Shown in pieces: positions 8,172-18,861 of a stretch of DNA of 64,000 bases (position 1 is its first letter; each line of letters opens with the position of its first letter). Origin of the DNA: Helicobacteraceae bacterium (GTDB lineage Bacteria > Campylobacterota > Campylobacteria > Campylobacterales > Sulfurimonadaceae). The notes under the pieces were generated by a model. That model had not been told where the DNA came from and made no database searches. It worked only from the letters and a program-made list of their open reading frames with translations. The DNA is taken from positions 1-64,000 of the forward strand of contig WTBY01000025.1 in the NCBI GenBank assembly GCA_013138865.1. The letters are read 5' to 3'. Made by a program: the position numbers and the translations under genes.

Positions 8172-9469
8172 ACTATTTAAAACATCGTGCAGTGCTTCTT
8201 ACCGTACTTTTTGCACTCAGTGTTTCACTTTTTAGTATAAGTTATACATTTTATAAATTTTATGAGAGTAATAATAGTAGTTATGTTGATAGTATTTTTA
8301 CAAGATATTCCGTAATTACTCAAATTTTAAGAGAACATACTCAAAAAAGCTCTCCAGTAGCAGTTCTTGAAGCTAATCTTGCACTTTATAAACTCTCCTT
8401 AATAGACAATAGTGATGAGGTTCAAATTATTATTAAACTCTCAAAAGTTTTAAAACGTGAAGGTTTTCAAGCCATAGAAGAGGCACTCTTTCAAGATAAA
8501 ATGGGAGTTTATGAGCAACAAATTATTCATGATATGCGTGCTTCTATGCTTGAGTACAACAAGGAAATATACTTTTATATAGAATCATCACAAAGTGCAA
8601 CACTTATAAAAGATGAAACAATTACACCATATATGCCTTTAAAACTTCTCTATACTTTTTTAATAATTATTTTTGTTATAACATCATCCTTTTTACTTAT
8701 TTTGTCTCGTATTCGACCACTTCGTGATTTACGACAACGTATTGCTCTTTTTGGTGAAGGTAAAATGGATATAAGTTTTGCTCTTAAAGGAAGTGATGAA
8801 ATTGCACTAGTTTCAAATGAACTAGAAAATACAAGAAGTAAAATTAATGTACTTTTAGAGTCAAGAACTCTGTTTATGAGAAATATTATGCATGAGTTAA
8901 AGACTCCGATCACAAAAGGGCGTATTGCTTCAGAAATGCTACCAACCGATAAACAACGAGAACGTTTTAGTGGTATCTTTTTGCGTTTGGAAGAGTTGAT
9001 CGCAGAGTTTGCTCTTATAGAAGAGCTTACATCTGCTCAAGAGAGAATAGAGTTAAAAGAGTATAAAGTTATAGACTTAATAGATGCTGCGGTCGACATG
9101 GCAATGGTCTCAAAACATGAGGTTGCAGTAGAAATAGATGAAAATGGTAAACTTTTAGTTGATTTTAAATTTTTTACAACAGCTATAAAAAATATGATCG
9201 ATAACGGTATAAAGTACTCAAGTGATTCTAAAGTTAGTGTCAAGATGATAAATAAGTCACTATATTTTGAAAGTAAAGGAGTGGAGTTAAAACATAAACT
9301 AAGTTACTATATAGAACCATTTACTAAAGATGTAGGTGCAACAAATAGTTTTGGTTTGGGTCTTTACCTAGTGGACACTATTTTAAAAATTCATAAATTT
9401 AACTTAGAGTACAAATACCAAGATGAAAGTAATATTTTTATTTTTAACTTTAAAACTTTAAAACTTTAA
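8168..9469 (+). CDS. Sensor histidine kinase, ArsS-like
   Basis: A 433-residue membrane kinase: TM1 about residues 9-30, a periplasmic loop of roughly 125 residues, TM2 about 158-180, a HAMP-like linker, an H-box with H242 in MHELKTPITKGR, and an ATPase domain with N-box MIDNGIKYSS and G-box SFGLGLYLVD. The ITKGR variant is what I know from ArsS-type kinases of Helicobacter and Campylobacter. It is coupled to the upstream response regulator by a 4-nt overlap, so the two form a cognate pair. No gene following it belongs to the operon, and a new -10 box appears at 9506. Confidence 0.9.
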   Translation: MNYLKHRAVLLTVLFALSVSLFSISYTFYKFYESNNSSYVDSIFTRYSVITQILREHTQKSSPVAVLEANLALYKLSLIDNSDEVQIIIKLSKVLKREGFQAIEEALFQDKMGVYEQQIIHDMRASMLEYNKEIYFYIESSQSATLIKDETITPYMPLKLLYTFLIIIFVITSSFLLILSRIRPLRDLRQRIALFGEGKMDISFALKGSDEIALVSNELENTRSKINVLLESRTLFMRNIMHELKTPITKGRIASEMLPTDKQRERFSGIFLRLEELIAEFALIEELTSAQERIELKEYKVIDLIDAAVDMAMVSKHEVAVEIDENGKLLVDFKFFTTAIKNMIDNGIKYSSDSKVSVKMINKSLYFESKGVELKHKLSYYIEPFTKDVGATNSFGLGLYLVDTILKIHKFNLEYKYQDESNIFIFNFKTLKL

Positions 9470-9505
9470 GTTAACAATAAAGTATTTTAAGGCACTCTTA
9501 GTTAG

Positions 9506-9511
9506 TATAAT
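9506..9511 (+). promoter_or_regulatory. TATAAT -10 box for the SiaC-like gene
   Basis: A perfect TATAAT stands 44 bases before the DUF1987 start codon, in an 85-base gap after the kinase gene. A purine-rich AAAAGG precedes the ATG. Confidence 0.5.
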
Positions 9512-9554
9512 AGTTATTAAACTTACTAAAACAAATAATTAAAAGGTTAACTAT

Positions 9555-9935
9555 ATGAAGACTTACACAATTGAAGAAACAAAGTGTACACCATCTATTA
9601 GTTTAGATCCAAGTGGTGTTATATCTTTATCTGGTAGATCATTTCCAGAAAATACATTTAAATTTTATACTCCTATGATGGAGTGGTTAGAGGAGTATTT
9701 TGAAAACTCCCCAGCAGAAAAAACAGTCGTTAGCTTAAATATTATATACATTAATTCAAGTAGTTCAAGACAATTTTTTGATTTTTTTGATCTATTAGAA
9801 GAGAACTGTGAAGAGCACAAGATAGAAATTAGTTGGATATATGATGAAGGTAATGATAGTGGTTTGGAGGCTGGTGAAGATTATCAAGATGACTTCCCAA
9901 ATTTAAATATTAAGCTTGTAGAAAAACCGAACTAA
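9555..9935 (+). CDS. SiaC-family (DUF1987) regulatory phosphoprotein
   Basis: The 126 residues match the DUF1987/SiaC layout: N-terminal strands with SLDPSGVISLSGRSFPEN, the helix MMEWLEEYFE, then LNIIYINSSSSRQFFDFFDLL, equivalent to the family's conserved YFNTSSSK motif. In Pseudomonas SiaC a threonine (recalled as Thr68) in this motif is phosphorylated by SiaB and dephosphorylated by the PP2C phosphatase SiaA; here Ser68 to Ser71 occupy the spot. The acidic C-terminal segment is typical. Its stop overlaps the next gene by one base (TAATG). A SpoIIE/PP2C phosphatase lies 1.6 kb downstream on the other strand. No SiaB-like kinase was recognised in the window. Confidence 0.85.
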   Translation: MKTYTIEETKCTPSISLDPSGVISLSGRSFPENTFKFYTPMMEWLEEYFENSPAEKTVVSLNIIYINSSSSRQFFDFFDLLEENCEEHKIEISWIYDEGNDSGLEAGEDYQDDFPNLNIKLVEKPN

Positions 9936-11479
9936 TGATTTATCAGTATGTAAAACGTTATTTAAAAGAGACTTTTAACGAACCAAGTGAAGACATGGTG
10001 TGGTCAAACCTTGATAATATTGCATTTTTAACTTATATAGAAAAAAGATATACTTTTAAAGAACTTACACATGAAATTTCCGAAGTAAAAGAGGCATTTA
10101 AAGACTTTTACAGTCCGATAGGTGCAATACTTTTTAGATATAAAGAGAGTGATGGGATTAGGTTTAAAATATTTCCATACAGGGCAGAACCTAAAAATTC
10201 GAAATATTTAAAAGATATTTTAACAATTTTAAATTCAAATAGAAAATATATCAAATATCCTTATGAAGAACAAAATGATCAAATAGCTGTATTAGGTAAA
10301 ATTAGGCGTCTGATTAATGCTAAGATAGACGATATAGAAGAGTCTGTAAATAAAAATGAACTTGTAAACTATGCTATACGTAAGTCATTGGGTTTAAACG
10401 ATAAAGACATTATTGTAAAACTAAAACGTATTTATCTTATAAAAATATTTGAGCAAAATAAGATACTAGAAGCAAAAAATGCAGAGGTTAAAAAAAGAAC
10501 TGGTATAGACAACAGATACAATGGCTATACAAAAGAGCAAGTCGATGGAATTTATGCAGACCTTTTTAAGAAAAATAATATAGAAAACTTTCTTTCAGAA
10601 GTTATGAAAAAAGTATTAAATAATGACCTTAACTTTACAAAAATTAGTAATAAATTTTATGATCTTAATGCTCTAAAGATTATACATAACCAAGTTGCTT
10701 CTGATCTAAAAAATTATGTTGAGCTTGAGAGTGATTTTGTTAACGGTTTTGCAGGTTATATAATGAGAGAGCACTTTAAAGAGATACATGGATTTATAGC
10801 AGAAAATCTTCTTGAAGCAATACATAGTAAAAGTGAAAATGCTAGACAGTTTCTACTCTATTTTAATGGTAAAGTCATAGTAGAAGATGGCAAAAGATAC
10901 ACTATCCCTTCACTAGAAACAGAAGATGGAAAGCAGTGGAATAATTCAGCTATTATGGGTATATGTGCACTTTGGGTTGATGCAAGGCAAAAGAAAAAGC
11001 TGTATGAAACTAGACTAACTGAAATTAATGAAAAAATTAATGAAGTGAGTAAAAGTTTAAGACCAATCGAGGAGCAAAAAGATAAGGATCTCTCTATAGT
11101 AGGTGCTAATAAAGAAAAAATACAAAGAATTAGACAGATCATATCGTCTAAAGAGCTTAAAATAAACTCTTTCAAACGTAGTGGTGTTGGTGATAGTATA
11201 GAAGAAGAAAAATTAAGTATACAGATAATCCATAATGAACAAGAGGTTGGACAGCTTCTAAATATGAACAAAGAGTTATTAAGAGATATAGAGAAAGCAC
11301 ATGATGACAATATAGAGTATTACGATACACTAGACTATTATAACCAACAGCTAGCACAAATTACTAAAGAATCTAAAATTCATGAGTTAAATATGGTAAC
11401 TAACTCAAAAAAATTAAATGAAATTCTTGAGTCGTTGATTAATACACTTATGTCTAGACGAAAGATTTTAATAAATTGA
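9935..11479 (+). CDS. Uncharacterised coiled-coil protein coupled to the SiaC-like gene
   Basis: I do not recognise this 514-residue protein. It has no signal peptide or membrane segment, so it is probably cytosolic. The first 340 residues are mixed, lysine-rich and helical, with a GAILFRYKESDG strand region near residue 65. From about residue 345 to 505 the pattern is that of long coiled coils, broken near residue 415. No nucleotide-binding or catalytic motif is evident. The start codon overlaps the SiaC-like stop (TAATG), so the two proteins are made together and may form a complex. It could be an effector controlled by SiaC phosphorylation, or a divergent kinase; both ideas are inference. 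Confidence 0.6.
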   Translation: MIYQYVKRYLKETFNEPSEDMVWSNLDNIAFLTYIEKRYTFKELTHEISEVKEAFKDFYSPIGAILFRYKESDGIRFKIFPYRAEPKNSKYLKDILTILNSNRKYIKYPYEEQNDQIAVLGKIRRLINAKIDDIEESVNKNELVNYAIRKSLGLNDKDIIVKLKRIYLIKIFEQNKILEAKNAEVKKRTGIDNRYNGYTKEQVDGIYADLFKKNNIENFLSEVMKKVLNNDLNFTKISNKFYDLNALKIIHNQVASDLKNYVELESDFVNGFAGYIMREHFKEIHGFIAENLLEAIHSKSENARQFLLYFNGKVIVEDGKRYTIPSLETEDGKQWNNSAIMGICALWVDARQKKKLYETRLTEINEKINEVSKSLRPIEEQKDKDLSIVGANKEKIQRIRQIISSKELKINSFKRSGVGDSIEEEKLSIQIIHNEQEVGQLLNMNKELLRDIEKAHDDNIEYYDTLDYYNQQLAQITKESKIHELNMVTNSKKLNEILESLINTLMSRRKILIN

Positions 11480-11520
11480 ACTTTTTTAAACTTCTTTAAT
11501 TGTTTGTAAGTCAGGCATAA

Positions 11521-14500
11521 TTATATTTTAAATGCTACAAAGGTAACATCATCATTTCTATCCCAATCACCTTGATACTGAGCAAGTTTATTTAAAAATA
11601 TATCTTCTTGCTTCGACATTATTTCTGTGTAGTGTTCTTTAAGGATGTTTGAAAACTTTTTCTTACCAAAAGGGAAGCCCTTTTCTCCACCATTTTGATC
11701 TAAGTATCCATCAGTAGTGAGGTAAAACTGCATTCCCTCTTTTACATCTATACTATGTTCTTTATACTCATAGTCCATAGTACATTTTTTATAACCAACA
11801 GAGTACCTATTGCCCTTGATTATTTTTAGTTCATCATTTTCCACATAAAAAAGTGGTGTTTCAGCTCCTGCAAACTTTATAATTTTATCTTTTTTATTAT
11901 AGTAAATTATTCCTCCATCAAATCCTGCATTAGAGATGCTATCTGATGTTTCTTGCTTAAGAAGCTGTTTCATATTTCTGTTAAAAATACTAAGAATTTT
12001 TGCTGGACTTACGACTTCATCGCTATTGTTTATTTGTGCAGTAATTTGTCTTTCTATTGCTTTAACAAGCATTGTTACAAATGCGCCCGGAACTCCATGT
12101 CCTGTACAGTCTATAACCATAAGTAAACACTCTTCTTCTCTTAACTCTTCAAAAAGATAAACATCCCCACCTACCGTATCTTTTGGTTGCCATACAGTAA
12201 AATAGTCTTGAAAATAATTTCTAAACAATGTATTATCAGGGATAAGAGCACTTTGAATTAATGAAGCATACTCTATAGAGTCTCTTGTATGTTTATTTAT
12301 CTCTTCTATCTCAAGTTTTGCGTTTTCCATTTCAGTTATATTTGTAAATACAGCTGATTTTAAACCTTCATTTCCTGGAAGTTTTGCAGCAGTAACAGAA
12401 AAAATGAAATCAACACTACCCATACTAATCATTACTTTATGATTGTTATCAAAAGAACGAGAGATAGCATAATCTATCCATGTTTCCCTTCCCATCGTAA
12501 TTTGCAGGTAGCCCTCTGGTGCATTAGTATTAAATGTATCACATACACATTTAGCATCATAGGTTTGGATAAATTCTTCTACAGTATCAACTGCATAAAA
12601 ATCAAAAAATGTTTCATTTGCCGTGAGTAAAGTTTCCCCATCTGTGGTAATGATAAGTTGCTCTTGTGAGTCTAAAAGAGTTTTATTAAATTTTCTCTCT
12701 TTTTCTATCTCTTTTGTTCTCTCTTCAATTTTCACTTCAAGATTAGCAGTTAAATCTTCCACCTCTTTTTGCGCTGTAATATCATGACGAATCGCACTGT
12801 AACCAATAGCTATGCCATCTTTATCAAAATCAGGAGAAATTATTGCATCAACCCAATAAAAACCACCATTCTTTTTAAGGTTTTTAACTTCACCTCTCCA
12901 AACTTTACCTGATTTGATAGTTTTCCATAAATCTTCAAACGCTTCTTTTGGCATATCTGGATGTTTTACAATATTATGAGGTTTTCCCACGAGATCTTCT
13001 CGTGAATGTTCACATATATCTACAAACGCATCACTAACATAGGTTATCTTTCCTCGTAAATCAGTCTTACTCGCAATAATATTTTTATCAAAATCTTCTA
13101 GTAGGGAACTTATCTCTTTTGTTTTATCTTTAACCATAAGATTTAGTTTTCTATTATTCCATAAAATAAAAAGAAATATCATCAAAACAACAATTCCGAT
13201 CTGTCCTACAAGAACCCAATCTGTTTTACTTTGTACTTTAATATTGACAGTTTTATTATAAATATGATTGAGTTCTTGTTCCGATATGCTATCAAGAGAT
13301 TTATTTATAATTGAGAGTAGCTCTTTAGGCAAAGTATTTTGAACAGCCATTTTAAATTCAAAAAAAGTATCTATGCTTGTAGCAATTTTTGTTTTATCAA
13401 AATCTTTTATTTGAATATAATATTTACCTGTTGATTTATTGACAGCGAACATATCAATTTTACCATTAGTAACTTTCTCAAAACCTTCCCGTACAGAAGA
13501 TAATTCTACAAAGTTAAAGTTAGGATATTTTTTCAATAATTTCTTATGCATAGCTCTCCCTGCAACTATACCTATACTCTTTTCTTCTAAATCAAACTTT
13601 ACATTTTCATAAATATTTTTATCATCTATATGCGTTATAAATACAACTGGAACTTTAAATAATGTTCTATTGCTAAAGTCTAAATATTCTTTTCGTTTTT
13701 CATTTTCAATGACAAAACTAAATATATCAGCTTTTTTATCTTTCATCAATTGTGTTGATTTTTTCCAACTCTTAGTTGTAATTGCTTCAAATTTTAAAGA
13801 GCTTTTTTTAGATATTAGATTCATTATCTCTGCTGTTGTACCACTATGAACACCTAATCCATTTGTATATTCAAATGGTTCTCTATTTGGGTCATACACA
13901 TATTTTATAACTTGATTTTTTTCTAACCACGCTTCTTCTTCTTTTGAAAGATTAATTTTGTTATTATCTTCTTCAAACCACTTATTTAAAATAGCATTAA
14001 TTTGGGCTTGAGTAATATCATCAAGAGCTTTATTTACTATTTGAGTTAAAATAATTTGTTCTTTATTGATTCCTATATGCAAAGCGTTTTGATTATATAT
14101 AATCGGTAAAACCGCTTTTATACCTGTTTGCATTGTTGAAGCCAAATAAAACTTGACAACAGCATAGGCATCAATATAAACATCTGCTTTATTTAAAATA
14201 ACAGCATCAACTCCCTCTTGAAGTGATTTAACTTTATGAAACTGCATCTTCGGATATTTCTTTTTCAAACTTTCTAATGTGGCATAACCATCAATAACTG
14301 CTACTTTTTTAAATTCTAACTCATCTAAAGACTCAATTGCTTTGTCATCTGTACGCATAAAGACATAATCTTTTACTTTAAAATAAGGTTTTGTATAAGC
14401 AGTAAAGGCTTCACGCTCTTCACTTTTATACATGGCAGGCAAAATATCAAGTTTCCCAATTTTAAAATCTTCTAATAGCTCTTTCCATGTTTGACCAACT

Positions 14501-16224
14501 TTATATTCAAGTTTTAAGCCTGTCTTTTGTGCAACTAAATCAAGAATATCTTTAGAAATACCTTGATATTTTCCATTGTTTCCTACAAAATCAAAAGGTT
14601 TCCAGTCCAGTTCTCCACCAACTAAAACGGTATTGTTTTGTATCCATTCTTTCTCTTTTTTTGTAAGAGGTACTTTTTTTATTTGCTCTTCTTCTTTTTC
14701 AGAGTTAACCCATTTACTTGCAAGTTTGAAAAAAACATCTTCTGGTAATTGCTCCATTGCTTTTTTTAATATAGTGTGTAGTTCTGGCCAATCTTTTCTT
14801 ATAGCGATTTTAATGTAATCTGCTTTTTCCATACTTGGAAAAGTAGGATCGCCTGCAAGTTTTAAATCTGTAAAATTGTATTTCTTCAAGAGGTATGATA
14901 CGACTGAGCTATTTTCTAAGAGTGCATCAACTTCTCCATAGGAGAGCTTTTTCAAACCTTCAACAGCATCATCAACGAGAACCATTTTTATTTGAGGGTA
15001 AGATTCAGAAATGACTTTTTCCTCTTCATACCCTCTAATAATTGCTACTTTTTTTCCAAATAAATCTTTATAGTCTTTTAAAAAAGGGGCATCTTTTTTT
15101 ATGACAATTGATTCAAACATAGTTAAGTAGGATTGGGTAAATAAAGCAAATTCTTTTCGTTCTTTGTTTTCCTCCAAAGCTGTCATAATATCAAGCTTTT
15201 TTTCTTTAAATTGTCCTACAAGGTCATCCCATGAGTTATCTTGGATAAATTCAAGTTTTAAACCTGCAAGACTTGCCAAAGCTCTTAGATAGTCCATACT
15301 AAAACCTTTGGCTTTGCCATTTTCATAAAAATCAAATGGAGGCCATTCTTTATCATTTGCTACTTTTATAATAGGATGCGCAGTAAGCCAATCTTTTTCC
15401 TTTTGCGTTAAATCAAGCTGACTATATTGTTTATTTTTCCCCGAAGTCCATTTATCTTCAATAGCTTTTCTTTCTTCAAAGCTTATACTCTCAATAGCTT
15501 TTTGTATTGCAGAATGAAGATATTTTTTATCTTTAATGATACCTACATGTAATGAGATGTCATTTTGTTGTTTCCTGTCTGGATCAAGATACTCCACAAG
15601 TTCTATATTTGTAATTTGGTTCTCTTTTGCATAATGTAGAAAAAGAAGAGGATTTCCAATAATGGCATCAAGTTTTTTTGTTGCTAGTGCTTGTGTCAGT
15701 TTTGAGTTATTTTTCAATTCAATGAGAGTAATATTTGGTAATAGTGCTTTTATGATAGGGATACTTCCATCTGATTCTTGAACACCAATCTTTAGATTGA
15801 TTAAATCTTTTACAGAGGAAATAGTATTGTCTTCTGCTCGTGTGAATACTCCTAGTTTCCCTTTGTGATAAGGTGTAGTAAAATTTGTAAACTCTTTTCG
15901 TTTTTCATTTTTATACAAAGCTGGTAAAACATCAATTTGTTCTTCTTTAAACATTTGTAATAATTGGGGCCAAGTAAACCCATGAATAAATTCAATATTA
16001 AGATCTAATTTATTTGCAATGAGTTTAATATAATCAATACTTAAACCTCTAGGCTTTCCAAATTCATTATAATCAAAGGGAGGCCAATCCATCTCATTTG
16101 CAACTTTTATTGTTGGGTTAGCTTTTAGCCATGTAGTTTCTTTTACACTCAGCGCTAATGAATTATCTTGAGTATTGGCAAACAGAAGGGTACTTAGAAG
16201 TAAAATATAAATTAATTTTTGCAT
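11521..16224 (-). CDS. Membrane PP2C/SpoIIE phosphatase with four periplasmic solute-binding domains and PAS
   Basis: A 1567-residue receptor phosphatase. After a signal peptide (1-17) come four tandem SBP_bac_3-type modules starting near residues 38, 291, 533 and 773, each opening with a version of IKVANDxEWPPFDF and followed by DILPALYKNEKRKEF-like text. One transmembrane helix (about 1000-1022) leads to a PAS domain (about 1046-1155), a coiled coil, a PAS-like segment (about 1185-1300) and a SpoIIE/PP2C phosphatase (about 1330-1567) with DTVGGDVYLF, IDCTGHGVPGAF and a final NDDVTFV. Likely role: dephosphorylating a partner protein, plausibly the DUF1987 protein, according to periplasmic ligands. 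Its ATG overlaps the porin stop by one base (TAATG). Confidence 0.85.
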   Translation of the reverse strand: MQKLIYILLLSTLLFANTQDNSLALSVKETTWLKANPTIKVANEMDWPPFDYNEFGKPRGLSIDYIKLIANKLDLNIEFIHGFTWPQLLQMFKEEQIDVLPALYKNEKRKEFTNFTTPYHKGKLGVFTRAEDNTISSVKDLINLKIGVQESDGSIPIIKALLPNITLIELKNNSKLTQALATKKLDAIIGNPLLFLHYAKENQITNIELVEYLDPDRKQQNDISLHVGIIKDKKYLHSAIQKAIESISFEERKAIEDKWTSGKNKQYSQLDLTQKEKDWLTAHPIIKVANDKEWPPFDFYENGKAKGFSMDYLRALASLAGLKLEFIQDNSWDDLVGQFKEKKLDIMTALEENKERKEFALFTQSYLTMFESIVIKKDAPFLKDYKDLFGKKVAIIRGYEEEKVISESYPQIKMVLVDDAVEGLKKLSYGEVDALLENSSVVSYLLKKYNFTDLKLAGDPTFPSMEKADYIKIAIRKDWPELHTILKKAMEQLPEDVFFKLASKWVNSEKEEEQIKKVPLTKKEKEWIQNNTVLVGGELDWKPFDFVGNNGKYQGISKDILDLVAQKTGLKLEYKVGQTWKELLEDFKIGKLDILPAMYKSEEREAFTAYTKPYFKVKDYVFMRTDDKAIESLDELEFKKVAVIDGYATLESLKKKYPKMQFHKVKSLQEGVDAVILNKADVYIDAYAVVKFYLASTMQTGIKAVLPIIYNQNALHIGINKEQIILTQIVNKALDDITQAQINAILNKWFEEDNNKINLSKEEEAWLEKNQVIKYVYDPNREPFEYTNGLGVHSGTTAEIMNLISKKSSLKFEAITTKSWKKSTQLMKDKKADIFSFVIENEKRKEYLDFSNRTLFKVPVVFITHIDDKNIYENVKFDLEEKSIGIVAGRAMHKKLLKKYPNFNFVELSSVREGFEKVTNGKIDMFAVNKSTGKYYIQIKDFDKTKIATSIDTFFEFKMAVQNTLPKELLSIINKSLDSISEQELNHIYNKTVNIKVQSKTDWVLVGQIGIVVLMIFLFILWNNRKLNLMVKDKTKEISSLLEDFDKNIIASKTDLRGKITYVSDAFVDICEHSREDLVGKPHNIVKHPDMPKEAFEDLWKTIKSGKVWRGEVKNLKKNGGFYWVDAIISPDFDKDGIAIGYSAIRHDITAQKEVEDLTANLEVKIEERTKEIEKERKFNKTLLDSQEQLIITTDGETLLTANETFFDFYAVDTVEEFIQTYDAKCVCDTFNTNAPEGYLQITMGRETWIDYAISRSFDNNHKVMISMGSVDFIFSVTAAKLPGNEGLKSAVFTNITEMENAKLEIEEINKHTRDSIEYASLIQSALIPDNTLFRNYFQDYFTVWQPKDTVGGDVYLFEELREEECLLMVIDCTGHGVPGAFVTMLVKAIERQITAQINNSDEVVSPAKILSIFNRNMKQLLKQETSDSISNAGFDGGIIYYNKKDKIIKFAGAETPLFYVENDELKIIKGNRYSVGYKKCTMDYEYKEHSIDVKEGMQFYLTTDGYLDQNGGEKGFPFGKKKFSNILKEHYTEIMSKQEDIFLNKLAQYQGDWDRNDDVTFVAFKI

Positions 16225-17516
16225 TAAAAAGTATATCCTAAAATAGTTCTAAAAAGAAGATTTTGATCTCCATGTTCTAAAACTCTTTGTCCTAGTTTCA
16301 TAGTCCAAGATAATCTCTTGTTGTACGTATAGTTCCCACTTACACCATAAGCATGCATAAAGCCATCTCCATTTATACTCTCACCAATGTATCCGCCTTT
16401 TGTATAGTCACTATTTAAATCATAGTAAGCATAAAGTAATGTTAGATTGTATGCATTTTCCCCATTTGTAAAATCAAATGATGGGGTAAGTGAATATATG
16501 TTTGCATCTCTAAGTGAAGTAGAAAAGTAAGTTACCATCATTCCATAGGCAAACTCTGGATACCCACCTGCTGTTCCAAAGAAATGGATTGAAGGGGTGT
16601 CTGTTATTCCTGTATATGCTAGTTTAACTTTATAGTTATCTGATGCTATTTGAGCTTTAGCACTGTATGTTGCATAGTCCACAACTGCATCAGGATTAGA
16701 GTTATTTTTTAAAGCTCCGATAGCGTCATATTTTATGTATTGTGCTGCTAATAGTAACTCTTTACCAGATATAGAAGAAGTATAATCTATTTGAGTAAAA
16801 ATAGAATTATATGCATCAAGCATTATATGGTCATATAATTGTAACTTGAGTTTATCTTTTTCGTACTCAACTCCGAGGTATCCCATCCCTGCATTATCTA
16901 CGCCTAAGTCATCTACAAGATTGTAGTAAGTTTCACTTCCTGTATCTGCTCTATGCGCCCACGCTTGTTTAGTCATCGAGTTAAATGTTGCTCCATCATA
17001 AGCACTATCCCAAGCACCACTCATTTGTGAGATAAACCCGAGTCTAAAGTTATAGTTTTCTATCTCTTTTATATCTGCGTGAATACCTTGAAAACTGTTT
17101 GATAATGCAAAATAATCATCAGAAGAGATTAGAGGTGTTTCAAGTTCAAATCTACCCAACTCTATAAGACTCTTAGAATAAGTGTATTTTAAAAATGCTT
17201 GATGCAGTATAGAGAAGTTATTTTTATCTTTATCAAAAAGATAAGCCATATTTCTTTTTTTCTCGAGCTTATCATAATCTTTAATGCCTAAATCTTGGAC
17301 TGTACCAAAGGCAATGCCACCTGTTAAACCTTTAAGTATTTCTTGTTCATATTTGATTTTTAAACTTGTTGCAAAAGCATCTGCATCAGGGAAACCTTTG
17401 TCATAATTATAGTTTACATATACTGCCCGAACATCAACTGATAAGTTATTTAAATAATTTGTTTCATTTGAGAAAAGTGATGTAAAACTAAGTAGTAAGA
17501 AGTGTATTTTTTTCAT
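16224..17516 (-). CDS. OprD-like outer-membrane porin
   Basis: The 430-residue product has a signal peptide (MKKIHFLLLSFTSLFS) and then beta-strand-rich sequence to a C-terminal aromatic residue (ILGYTF), as in outer-membrane barrels. ELGRFELETPLISSDD followed by NSFQGIHADI resembles the GRQxxxTPL...TFEG motif of OprD/Opr porins also seen in the three other porins here. I start it at 17516 rather than at upstream ATG 17594: the later start has GGAGAAG 5-9 nt ahead and gives a clean signal peptide, while the longer form runs through an inverted repeat. It is coupled to the phosphatase gene, suggesting it admits the ligands sensed by the solute-binding domains. Confidence 0.8.
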   Translation of the reverse strand: MKKIHFLLLSFTSLFSNETNYLNNLSVDVRAVYVNYNYDKGFPDADAFATSLKIKYEQEILKGLTGGIAFGTVQDLGIKDYDKLEKKRNMAYLFDKDKNNFSILHQAFLKYTYSKSLIELGRFELETPLISSDDYFALSNSFQGIHADIKEIENYNFRLGFISQMSGAWDSAYDGATFNSMTKQAWAHRADTGSETYYNLVDDLGVDNAGMGYLGVEYEKDKLKLQLYDHIMLDAYNSIFTQIDYTSSISGKELLLAAQYIKYDAIGALKNNSNPDAVVDYATYSAKAQIASDNYKVKLAYTGITDTPSIHFFGTAGGYPEFAYGMMVTYFSTSLRDANIYSLTPSFDFTNGENAYNLTLLYAYYDLNSDYTKGGYIGESINGDGFMHAYGVSGNYTYNKRLSWTMKLGQRVLEHGDQNLLFRTILGYTF

Positions 17517-17530
17517 ATCTTTACTTCTCC

Positions 17531-17562
17531 AAAAAATTACGAGGTGCCCCTTGAGGGTATAA
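17531..17562 (-). repeat. Left arm of a perfect 32-bp inverted repeat
   Basis: Bases 17531-17562 are the exact reverse complement of 17653-17684 (core GAGGTGCCCCTTGAGGG). The arms are 90 nt apart. This arm ends 14 nt before the porin start codon, so it lies in the leader of the porin-phosphatase mRNA. It may be an IS or MITE terminal repeat, or a regulatory palindrome. Confidence 0.85.
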
Positions 17563-17652
17563 ATTAATAATAAGAGCCACTTGCAGATTCCCACAAAAGC
17601 AGCTAATTTAAACTTTTAGTAGTTCAAAAAGTTGAATCTAATTTCAAATAAG

Positions 17653-17684
17653 TTATACCCTCAAGGGGCACCTCGTAATTTTTT
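17653..17684 (+). repeat. Right arm of a perfect 32-bp inverted repeat
   Basis: This is the exact reverse complement of 17531-17562. It lies 34 nt before the ATG of a decayed transposase gene, the position expected of an IS left terminal repeat. A further shorter pair, GTTGAATCT at about 17631 and AGATTCAAC at about 17710, brackets this arm. Confidence 0.85.
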
Positions 17685-17718
17685 ACGACAAAAATCTAAC
17701 AGAAAAGAGATTCAACTT

Positions 17719-18018
17719 ATGTCTAAAATTATATCTTCATTTTCAAAAATGTGGCTTAAAGTTAAAAACCTAGAGAGCTCGTTATTCCCACAACTACAAG
17801 AGCAGTTAGGTGTATTAAGTACTAAAGAGCAACGACTTGTGAAAATTTTAGATTTTGCAGAGATAGAGAAAAATATCACAGTTATATCTATTACTAACAT
17901 CCCAAAAGATAGAGAGCAAATTGCACGAGCTTTTATAGCTGAGAGTGTTTATAACATGCAAACAACAAGAGACTTAATTGATAGACTTCGTATTTGTGAA
18001 CAGAGGAGTGAAAGGTAG
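17719..18018 (+). pseudogene. Decayed transposase N-terminal fragment
   Basis: The 99 residues resemble the N-terminus of a DDE transposase group in which PQLQEQLG...LSTKEQRLVKIL is followed by DREQIARAFIAESVYNM and TTRDLIDRLR. Intact proteins as I remember them continue through roughly SDxxLRRICGW; here LIDRLR jumps straight to ICEQRSER and a stop, implying a small in-frame deletion and then truncation. No catalytic residues remain. I use ATG 17719 (after GAGATTCAAC); the upstream ATG at 17632 would add 29 residues read out of the inverted repeat. The fragment supports an IS origin for the 32-bp repeat. It could instead be a small cellular protein. Confidence 0.6.
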
Positions 18019-18090
18019 CAGTATGAAAGTAGTATTTTTATACTCACTTTTTAGATAGAATACTAATAAAATAATTTTAGGTAATTTAAT

Positions 18091-18861
18091 ATGAAAACAA
18101 TTTTAGTAACAAATGATGACGGTTATGAGTCTAAAGGCCTTCTTGAGCTGGTAAAAAGTTTAAGAGAAATAGCAAATGTGATCGTAGTAGCTCCTGCAAA
18201 TGAGAAGTCTGCTTGTGGACACTCACTAACTCTAACAAGACCATTACGCTTTGTGAGTGTTGATGATGATTTTTACAAACTAGATGATGGAACACCAAGT
18301 GACTGTATCTACTTAGCTCTTAACTCTCTTTTTAAAGATGGAGATAGACCTGACTTAATAGTGAGCGGAATAAATAGAGGCTCAAATATGGGTGAAGATA
18401 TAACTTACTCAGGAACTTGTGCAGGAGCAATGGAAGGTGTACTGCATGACGTCCCTTCAATTGCAATTTCTCAAGTTGTTGACTTTAGTGAGCCATATGT
18501 CGACTATACGCTTGCTTGTAAAACTATTAAAAATTTAGTTACTAAAATTTTAAATAGTGAATTTCCTTTGCCAGAACGAGAGTTTTTGAATATTAATATT
18601 CCAATGAATCTAAAAGAAGCACCATTAGAAGTTACTTATGCTGGTTATCGTTTTTATGGTAATGAGGCACAAATACATAGAAACCCTAGAGGTGAAGAGC
18701 ATATTTGGTTAGGGCTTCACCCTCTCTCATTTAAAAAGCGTGATGGTGTCGATGGACTTTGTGACTATGACGCAATAGAGAAAGGAAGTGTATCAATTAC
18801 ACCAATTATGTTAGACTTGAGCGCTTATAAAAGTATCGACAAATTAAAAAGGTGGCTCTAA
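18091..18861 (+). CDS. surE: 5'/3'-nucleotidase SurE (survival protein)
   Basis: SurE is a metal-dependent nucleoside monophosphatase linked to stationary-phase survival. The 256 residues begin with ILVTNDDGYESKGL, whose paired aspartates bind metal, and continue with VVAPANEKSACGHSLT, DGTPSDCIYLAL, SGINRGSNMGEDITYSGT and, near the C-terminus, SVSITPIMLDLSAY, all family hallmarks. Length is typical. The stop overlaps the ThiF-like gene start by one base. Confidence 0.96.
   Translation: MKTILVTNDDGYESKGLLELVKSLREIANVIVVAPANEKSACGHSLTLTRPLRFVSVDDDFYKLDDGTPSDCIYLALNSLFKDGDRPDLIVSGINRGSNMGEDITYSGTCAGAMEGVLHDVPSIAISQVVDFSEPYVDYTLACKTIKNLVTKILNSEFPLPEREFLNINIPMNLKEAPLEVTYAGYRFYGNEAQIHRNPRGEEHIWLGLHPLSFKKRDGVDGLCDYDAIEKGSVSITPIMLDLSAYKSIDKLKRWL

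Follow-up and report, generated by a model that had tools for sequence, protein, structure and literature searches.

The window, a stretch of 64,000 nucleotides from a Helicobacteraceae bacterium (GCA_013138865.1, contig WTBY01000025.1, positions 1 to 64,000), contains a four-gene cassette that we consider a candidate partner switch with likeness to the SiaABCD system of Pseudomonas aeruginosa. The genome comprises 3.03 Mb in 82 contigs, and the window lies on the one numbered C77. On the plus strand, a SiaC-like, putative phosphoprotein of 126 amino acids (aa) (9555 to 9935; PF09345, the former DUF1987, 121 bits against a cut-off of 24.5) is followed by a 514-aa protein without a named family, here called CC514 (9935 to 11479). 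On the minus strand, an OprD-like outer membrane porin (16224 to 17516; Pfam OprD, 43.6 bits against a cut-off of 25; 5' end at 17516 with an ATG start or at 17594 with the first GTG) precedes a SiaA-like phosphatase of 1567 aa (11521 to 16224). In each pair the stop codon of the first gene and the start codon of the second share one base in the sequence TAATG. An earlier note, made from the sequence alone, had placed these four genes here as two convergent pairs with a TAATG overlap in each, and had recognised the DUF1987 protein, the OprD-like porin and four solute-binding modules on the phosphatase; our coordinates, reading frames and profile searches agree with all of this.

The phosphatase begins with a signal peptide (by eye), followed by four solute-binding protein (SBP) modules, detected as SBP_bac_3 in four stretches with 289 bits. 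These cover residues of about 37-262 (15439 to 16116), 284-508 (14701 to 15375), 529-756 (13957 to 14640) and 781-1012 (13189 to 13884), all on the minus strand; the limits of the first, third and fourth were set by hand from Pfam and alignment, and the second is BvgS-like in a PDB search. Structural neighbours of the modules in the PDB are BvgS and EvgS (4q0c and 9ilw among the matches) together with amino-acid binding proteins. A single membrane span near residues 1020-1040 (by eye) and a PAS domain at residues 1054-1151 (12772 to 13065, minus strand; Pfam) come next, both of them overlooked in the earlier description, which was right about the SBP modules and the phosphatase domain. This PP2C (SpoIIE-type) domain ends the protein (11524 to 12132, minus strand; Pfam, 64 bits). 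On alignment to P. aeruginosa SiaA (6k4e, E 1.8e-55) its metal motifs GGD, DCTGHG, TDG and DD are intact, and we take these as counterparts of the conserved active-site residues listed for SiaA in PMC7647112 (for this paper, as for PMC8457831 and PMC9239204, our statements refer to the part of the text that was covered). The closest relatives of the domain are from Sulfurimonas or other Campylobacterota, with gammaproteobacteria also among them.

For comparison, named genomes were scanned with the phosphatase domain, which gave 78 loci covering the best 80 of 84 relatives, and genes were counted in six-frame translations with our own hidden Markov models (HMMs); locus L121, which is also contig C6 of genome G005, was counted once. 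By such an HMM, 36 of 89 PP2C proteins in the named loci, several of them cut at contig ends, carry SBP modules: one module in 12, two in 15, three in 6, four in 2 and seven in 1. Because only two four-module proteins and one seven-module protein (locus L123, 2916 aa, in which Pfam gives five separate SBP stretches) are found among these 36, four modules are unusual but not unique. Another relative (locus L119, 6995 to 11767) encodes a single chain of 1590 aa with three SBP modules, PAS, PP2C and a SiaB kinase domain, that is, sensor, phosphatase and kinase in one protein.

The SiaC-like protein aligns over residues 6-114 with P. aeruginosa SiaC (6kko and 6k4f; phmmer E about 9e-15). Its N67-S68-S69 lies over the N-T-S of that solved protein, which puts a phosphorylatable residue, S68 (codon 9756 to 9758), at the position of T68. 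All three residues were invariant in 16 of 16 SiaC sequences (alignment A2), and a pattern scan that allowed S or T at the site, and that misses some SiaC genes, found S in 43 of 43 matching proteins.

CC514 is harder to place. The protein has no match above cut-off in Pfam, only weak or single-member matches were obtained in NCBIfam, PHROGs and PADLOC, and a PDB profile search gave coiled coils among the 60 of 139 matches listed. An AlphaFold model from five sequences (mean predicted local distance difference test score, pLDDT, 80; predicted template modelling score 0.45) has a predicted N-terminal alpha/beta part and long C-terminal helices at residues 337-512. The model had no Foldseek match at E <= 0.001, nor had the N-terminal part alone (342 aa, pLDDT 68). 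VIA-align rows fell mostly on residues 332-506, the other parts being barely tested, with Z up to 12.4, a value within the stated range of that program for long helices. The models give no function, and the absent structural match is no evidence of a new fold.

The earlier note had found SiaB and SiaD apparently absent locally and had proposed to look for a SiaB homologue elsewhere. The absence holds for the locus, and no SiaB was found on the whole of C77; the genome carries six SiaB/DUF6272 domains on other contigs, namely C17, C12, C76 (three) and C3. It further holds ten SpoIIE-type domains and six SiaC genes, of which the copies on C17, C12, C76 and C3 are accompanied by SiaB and those on C77 and C52 are not. 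The three SiaB domains of C76 stand without any SpoIIE match on that contig, and C77 shows the opposite. Both motifs that we take to be ATP-binding, the E-x2-QN box and the G-x-G-x-GF loop, are retained by all three C76 copies in an alignment of SiaB sequences. Locus L112 has a single gene row of SBPx2-PP2C (truncated at the end of the contig), HD-GYP, SiaC, SiaB and CC514, and the closest CC514 sequences to that of the window are those of L132 (50% over 401 residues) and L112 (44%). Since the C76 genes match those of L112 (HD-GYP 73%, SiaB 60% and SiaC 78% identity) and the L112 CC514 is among these two closest, the simplest reading is that this genome has a single-row system like that of L112 split into two parts, one on C76 and one on C77.

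Co-occurrence in relatives supports a connection between the four genes, which the earlier note had named as a point to check. The 78 loci contain 50 SiaC genes in 49 loci, with SiaB within 3 kb of 46 of the 50; the 29 loci without SiaC include several short contigs. Full CC514 genes were present in four (L109, L112, L121 and L132), and a fragment in L115. In 1.12 Mb of loci fetched by their phosphatase, four full copies compare with 0.09 to 0.45 expected from assumed densities of 0.08 and 0.4 per Mb (Poisson P 2.5e-6 to 1.2e-3, a post hoc calculation). Altogether CC514 stands beside Sia genes in seven loci from six genomes, the L115 fragment being left out: the window, C12 of the same genome, genome G016, L121, L109, L112 and L132. 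Both C12 and G016 have the gene row SiaB-SiaC-CC514, and L121, L109 and L112 hold PP2C, SiaB, SiaC, HD-GYP and CC514 in single clusters. The fullest case is L132 (Sulfurimonas sp. SAG-AH-194-I05), where all four genes of the window are found together with SiaB and HD-GYP, in the order porin, SBP, SBP-PP2C, response regulator (by eye), SiaB, SiaC, HD-GYP, a 140-aa gene, a second SiaC and CC514; Pfam confirmed the OprD (33.8 bits), the free SBP, the SBP plus SpoIIE protein and the HD-GYP. The 140-aa protein (13405 to 13827 of L132), between HD-GYP and the second SiaC, belongs to no Pfam family. With L132 as a locus that has all four genes, the PP2C metal motifs intact and S68 in place by sequence alignment, none of the three outcomes that the earlier note had named as refuting its reading was obtained; that reading, in which solutes enter by the porin and set SiaC phosphorylation through the phosphatase, with the coiled-coil protein as output, is supported in part.

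In a CC514 tree of 21 rows, the seven Sia-linked rows need three changes, a number as low as in 2 of 500 shuffles. The window, L132 and L112 copies form one clade (support 100/99), and the C12 copy groups with a Sia-unlinked one on C59. The family seems to have joined Sia loci at least twice, one clade being attached to them. The C59 paralogue itself (locus L028, 5768 to 11586) is divergent from genes for a NIT-type chemoreceptor, a REC-SpoIIE-HATPase protein and a protein of 95 aa that looks STAS-like by eye and has no Pfam match, an arrangement that resembles the PP2C-STYK chemoreceptor pathway of PMC9239204.

Genes beside SiaC in relatives often start with a similar helix. A profile built from 12 such proteins, with SiaD excluded, found SiaD (7e6g) as best PDB chain (E 0.0034), and by our own count the aligned stretch includes the published SiaC contacts V78, S82, D83 and Q86; the docking motif of the SiaD stalk was defined as I-x3-S-D-[KR]-x-Q. 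After four short or partial sequences were left out of 58 distinct docking-helix proteins, the remaining 54 carry, in overlapping counts, HD-GYP (32), HATPase_c (13), GGDEF (2), nucleotide cyclase (2), Hpt (3), response regulator (3), SpoIIE (1) and HlyD (1) domains. The helix has SD, GD or AD at its centre in 53 of them (the exception, in L119, has TD), and none has two docking motifs by our own pattern. Given these varied domains, with HD-GYP in 32 of 54, SiaC gives the impression of an adaptor that serves many outputs, phosphodiesterases being the commonest. DUF1987 proteins have been suggested to modulate adjacent proteins (PMC8457831).

The other Sia loci of the genome show a variety of neighbours. 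On C76 (L029, 5375 to 13388) SiaC shares the locus with the HD-GYP gene, two SiaB genes, a LapG-like (Peptidase_C93) gene and genes for two LapD-like proteins, one of which is a periplasmic-GGDEF-EAL protein with a SiaB domain fused to it; this is a possible Sia-Lap adhesion link. In the C3 locus (L030, 4658 to 13030) a REC-PAS-PP2C-SiaB fusion and SiaC are followed by genes that by eye are TolC-like and of an ABC transporter, and by one for a HlyD-type adaptor that opens with a docking helix and a PAS domain. Here the Sia output may be a secretion system. On C17 (L032, 3997 to 8772) the gene row of SiaA-like PP2C, SiaB and SiaC continues with a CheA-like/CheX protein that carries a docking helix, with two response regulators besides (by eye). 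The SiaC on C52 (L031, 6538 to 6927), the second without SiaB, is beside a response regulator (by eye) and is the least similar to that of the window among the other five (35%). C33 (L219, 727 to 1644) encodes an orphan HD-GYP with two docking-like motifs in its first 100 residues (by eye), and no SiaC, SiaB or SpoIIE match was found on that contig.

Taken together, we favour, with a probability of about 0.6, a split Sia-type partner switch made up of the SBP-array phosphatase, SiaC with its S68, a kinase in trans and CC514 as likely local target or co-effector. The four-module phosphatase would sense periplasmic small molecules, which the adjoining porin may admit, and ligand binding would set the rate at which the PP2C domain removes phosphate from S68. 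The opposing kinase would act in trans, most likely from the SiaB genes on C76. SiaC without phosphate would then bind its partners, and CC514, translationally coupled to it, would be the most likely one encoded locally; no catalytic domain is recognised in CC514, which would presumably work as a coiled-coil protein. A SiaC of this kind probably also acts in the same cell on docking-helix proteins, for example HD-GYP phosphodiesterases of cyclic di-GMP (c-di-GMP).

Several observations weigh against this reading, most of them against CC514. No search gave CC514 a relative of known function. The window copy does not match the docking-helix profile (E 460) and has one loose S-D match to the motif, at residue 72, lacking the K/R and the Q; nor was a GGDEF match found in it with Pfam or NCBIfam, as an output of the SiaD type with a docking stalk would have. 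By profile search, a CC514 relative was present in 60 of 397 genomes of the class and SiaC in 22 (21 over the cut-off), and by comparison of the lists both were present in nine, one of which (G189) is counted on a SiaC match below the cut-off; the two genes are adjacent in two of the nine. The first scan of these genomes scored at most three candidates per genome, so that paralogues could be missed, and lists three of the four CC514 copies of the source genome. In a set of 60 relatives, a CC514 relative occurs in 21, SiaC in 15, both in 10 and close together in 3. Outside Sia loci no constant gene stood beside CC514 among the neighbours listed, and SiaC proteins linked to CC514 were not clustered in the SiaC tree (126 of 500 shuffles as low), which gives no sign of co-inheritance. 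On the side of the known components, SiaC is below the cut-off of the NCBIfam equivalog NF038265 (91.3 vs. 150 bits), the phosphatase is below that of the SiaA equivalog NF038263 (261.7 vs. 700 bits, only residues 1286-1567), and by phmmer a homologue of the porin was found in only two of the 78 phosphatase loci, L132 and L159. Because SiaC is missing from most of the genomes in which a CC514 relative occurs, we only infer that CC514 is an output.

CC514 could instead be an accessory or passenger, with SiaC acting on unlinked docking-helix enzymes such as the HD-GYP on C76 or the orphan one on C33. This would fit the 78 loci, where within 3 kb SiaC is found near 46 of 50 docking helices and a docking helix near 39 of 50 SiaC genes, in a sample biased by a profile built from SiaC neighbours and by loci fetched with the phosphatase, and also the presence of an HD-GYP gene beside CC514 in all of L109, L112, L121 and L132. 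The orphan HD-GYP matches the docking profile weakly (E 0.0011), but beyond it the source genome gave only two matches at E 0.16 and 0.54, apart from strong ones to the four of its proteins that had gone into the profile. The HD-GYP of L121 misses the profile (E 7.8), and in L132 the second SiaC and CC514 form a pair separate from the HD-GYP. The linkage is also tight: the two genes overlap in TAATG in the window, and CC514 starts 4 bp after the second SiaC of L132 and 7 bp after SiaC on C12. We regard a CC514 without an output role as rather unlikely, while giving it more weight than the remaining alternatives.

The position of the cassette raises the question of its origin. A histidine kinase gene lies just before SiaC and surE just after the cassette, and these two are found within one short stretch in 10 of 22 genomes of the same family (directly adjacent in five), a comparison of flanks of about 1.5 kb that could miss further cases; in the window 8 kb of Sia genes lie between them. 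At the right border of the cassette there is a transposase N-terminal fragment (17719 to 18018, plus strand; 68% to an annotated transposase), which shares 78% identity in a 91-residue alignment with a longer frame elsewhere in this genome, on C62. Between porin and fragment, a perfect 26-bp inverted repeat spans 17537 to 17678 (arms 17537-17562 and 17653-17678); no other copy of its 24-bp core was found in the genome with up to 3 mismatches allowed, and the repeat was not seen by eye upstream of the C62 frame. The split of the kinase-surE neighbourhood and the border elements fit a joint insertion of the four genes, where the transposase could have come later. Per kb the GC content of the cassette is 0.26 to 0.33 with no clear difference from the flanks, and promoter and terminator scans over 9300 to 18100 gave no excess above shuffled sequence. 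We also considered the histidine kinase before SiaC as a member of the system and rejected it, as kinases adjacent to CC514 elsewhere (L223, L224, L240 and L229) are only 21-24% identical to it over 175-275 residues; judged by sequence, we take it to be the conserved kinase of the surE neighbourhood and outside the system. In genome G015 an OprD-like protein (L256, 1 to 701; 30% identity to the window porin) stands just before the same response regulator-kinase pair.

A horizontally acquired Sia system in decay, half lost, with SiaB and HD-GYP left behind and the remaining genes no longer signalling, would explain the cassette between genes that are neighbours elsewhere, the transposase fragment at its border, the lack of SiaB on C77 and the long branch of the window SiaC in the SiaC tree (0.83 vs. 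a median of 0.41). The four open reading frames, both overlaps and the PP2C and S68 motifs are however all kept, and kinase genes are present in trans, making decay improbable. Equally improbable is that the two pairs are unrelated neighbours: being convergent they are not one transcript, and the porin seldom accompanies such phosphatases, but the window and L132 each have all four genes in one place, and a SiaA-type PP2C and SiaC are a known enzyme-substrate pair (PMC7647112).

Returning to the split partner switch, a wider picture can be drawn, which we offer tentatively and at slightly less than even odds. SiaC would be a plug-in hub whose state depends on a solute-sensing phosphatase and on kinases from other loci, and which reads out through a common docking helix to many effectors (phosphodiesterase, cyclase, histidine kinase, CheA-like protein, secretion adaptor), and this lineage would have gained in CC514 a second kind of partner, with an output that is neither a sigma factor nor a second-messenger enzyme. 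If this is true, the Sia switch reaches beyond one Pseudomonas diguanylate cyclase: in free-living Campylobacterota and other bacteria it would serve as a general adaptor, linking the sensing of solutes in the periplasm to many outputs. The short docking helix would let SiaC targets be read from sequence, and the CC514 family gains a testable context. It also suggests that phosphatase and kinase, encoded at two places in the genome, meet only through their shared substrate.

The system had been called undescribed in the earlier note, which is true in part. For several Campylobacterota, a periplasmic-sensor PP2C and stas_STYK were proposed in 2022 to regulate a c-di-GMP enzyme through a STAS protein (PMC9239204), so the idea of SiaABC-like control of c-di-GMP enzymes in this group is not new. 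These pathways are alike in the periplasmic-sensor PP2C, the kinase and the STAS-type protein proposed to control a c-di-GMP enzyme; SBP arrays, a shared docking helix, CC514 and an unlinked kinase are not mentioned in the main-text part covered. For CC514, which is not searchable by name, the SBP-array SiaA and the docking helix on HD-GYP, we found no description in the literature covered, mostly papers available without subscription. The sensor kinases BvgS and EvgS are alike in their tandem periplasmic SBP modules, which there drive a histidine kinase, whereas the window protein has four modules and a PP2C phosphatase instead. SiaABCD of P. aeruginosa (PMC7647112, PMC8457831) shares the SiaA-type PP2C and the STAS-like switch, with a SiaC phosphosite at T68 in N67-x-S69 and a phosphorylatable S68 in its place in the window, and its SiaD docking stalk is recovered by the profile from proteins of the relatives. 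The relatives differ from it in that their docking-helix proteins are mostly HD-GYP with one motif each, where SiaD has two, and the window in that the sensor consists of four SBP modules, the locus lacks SiaB and SiaD, and SiaC is coupled to CC514.

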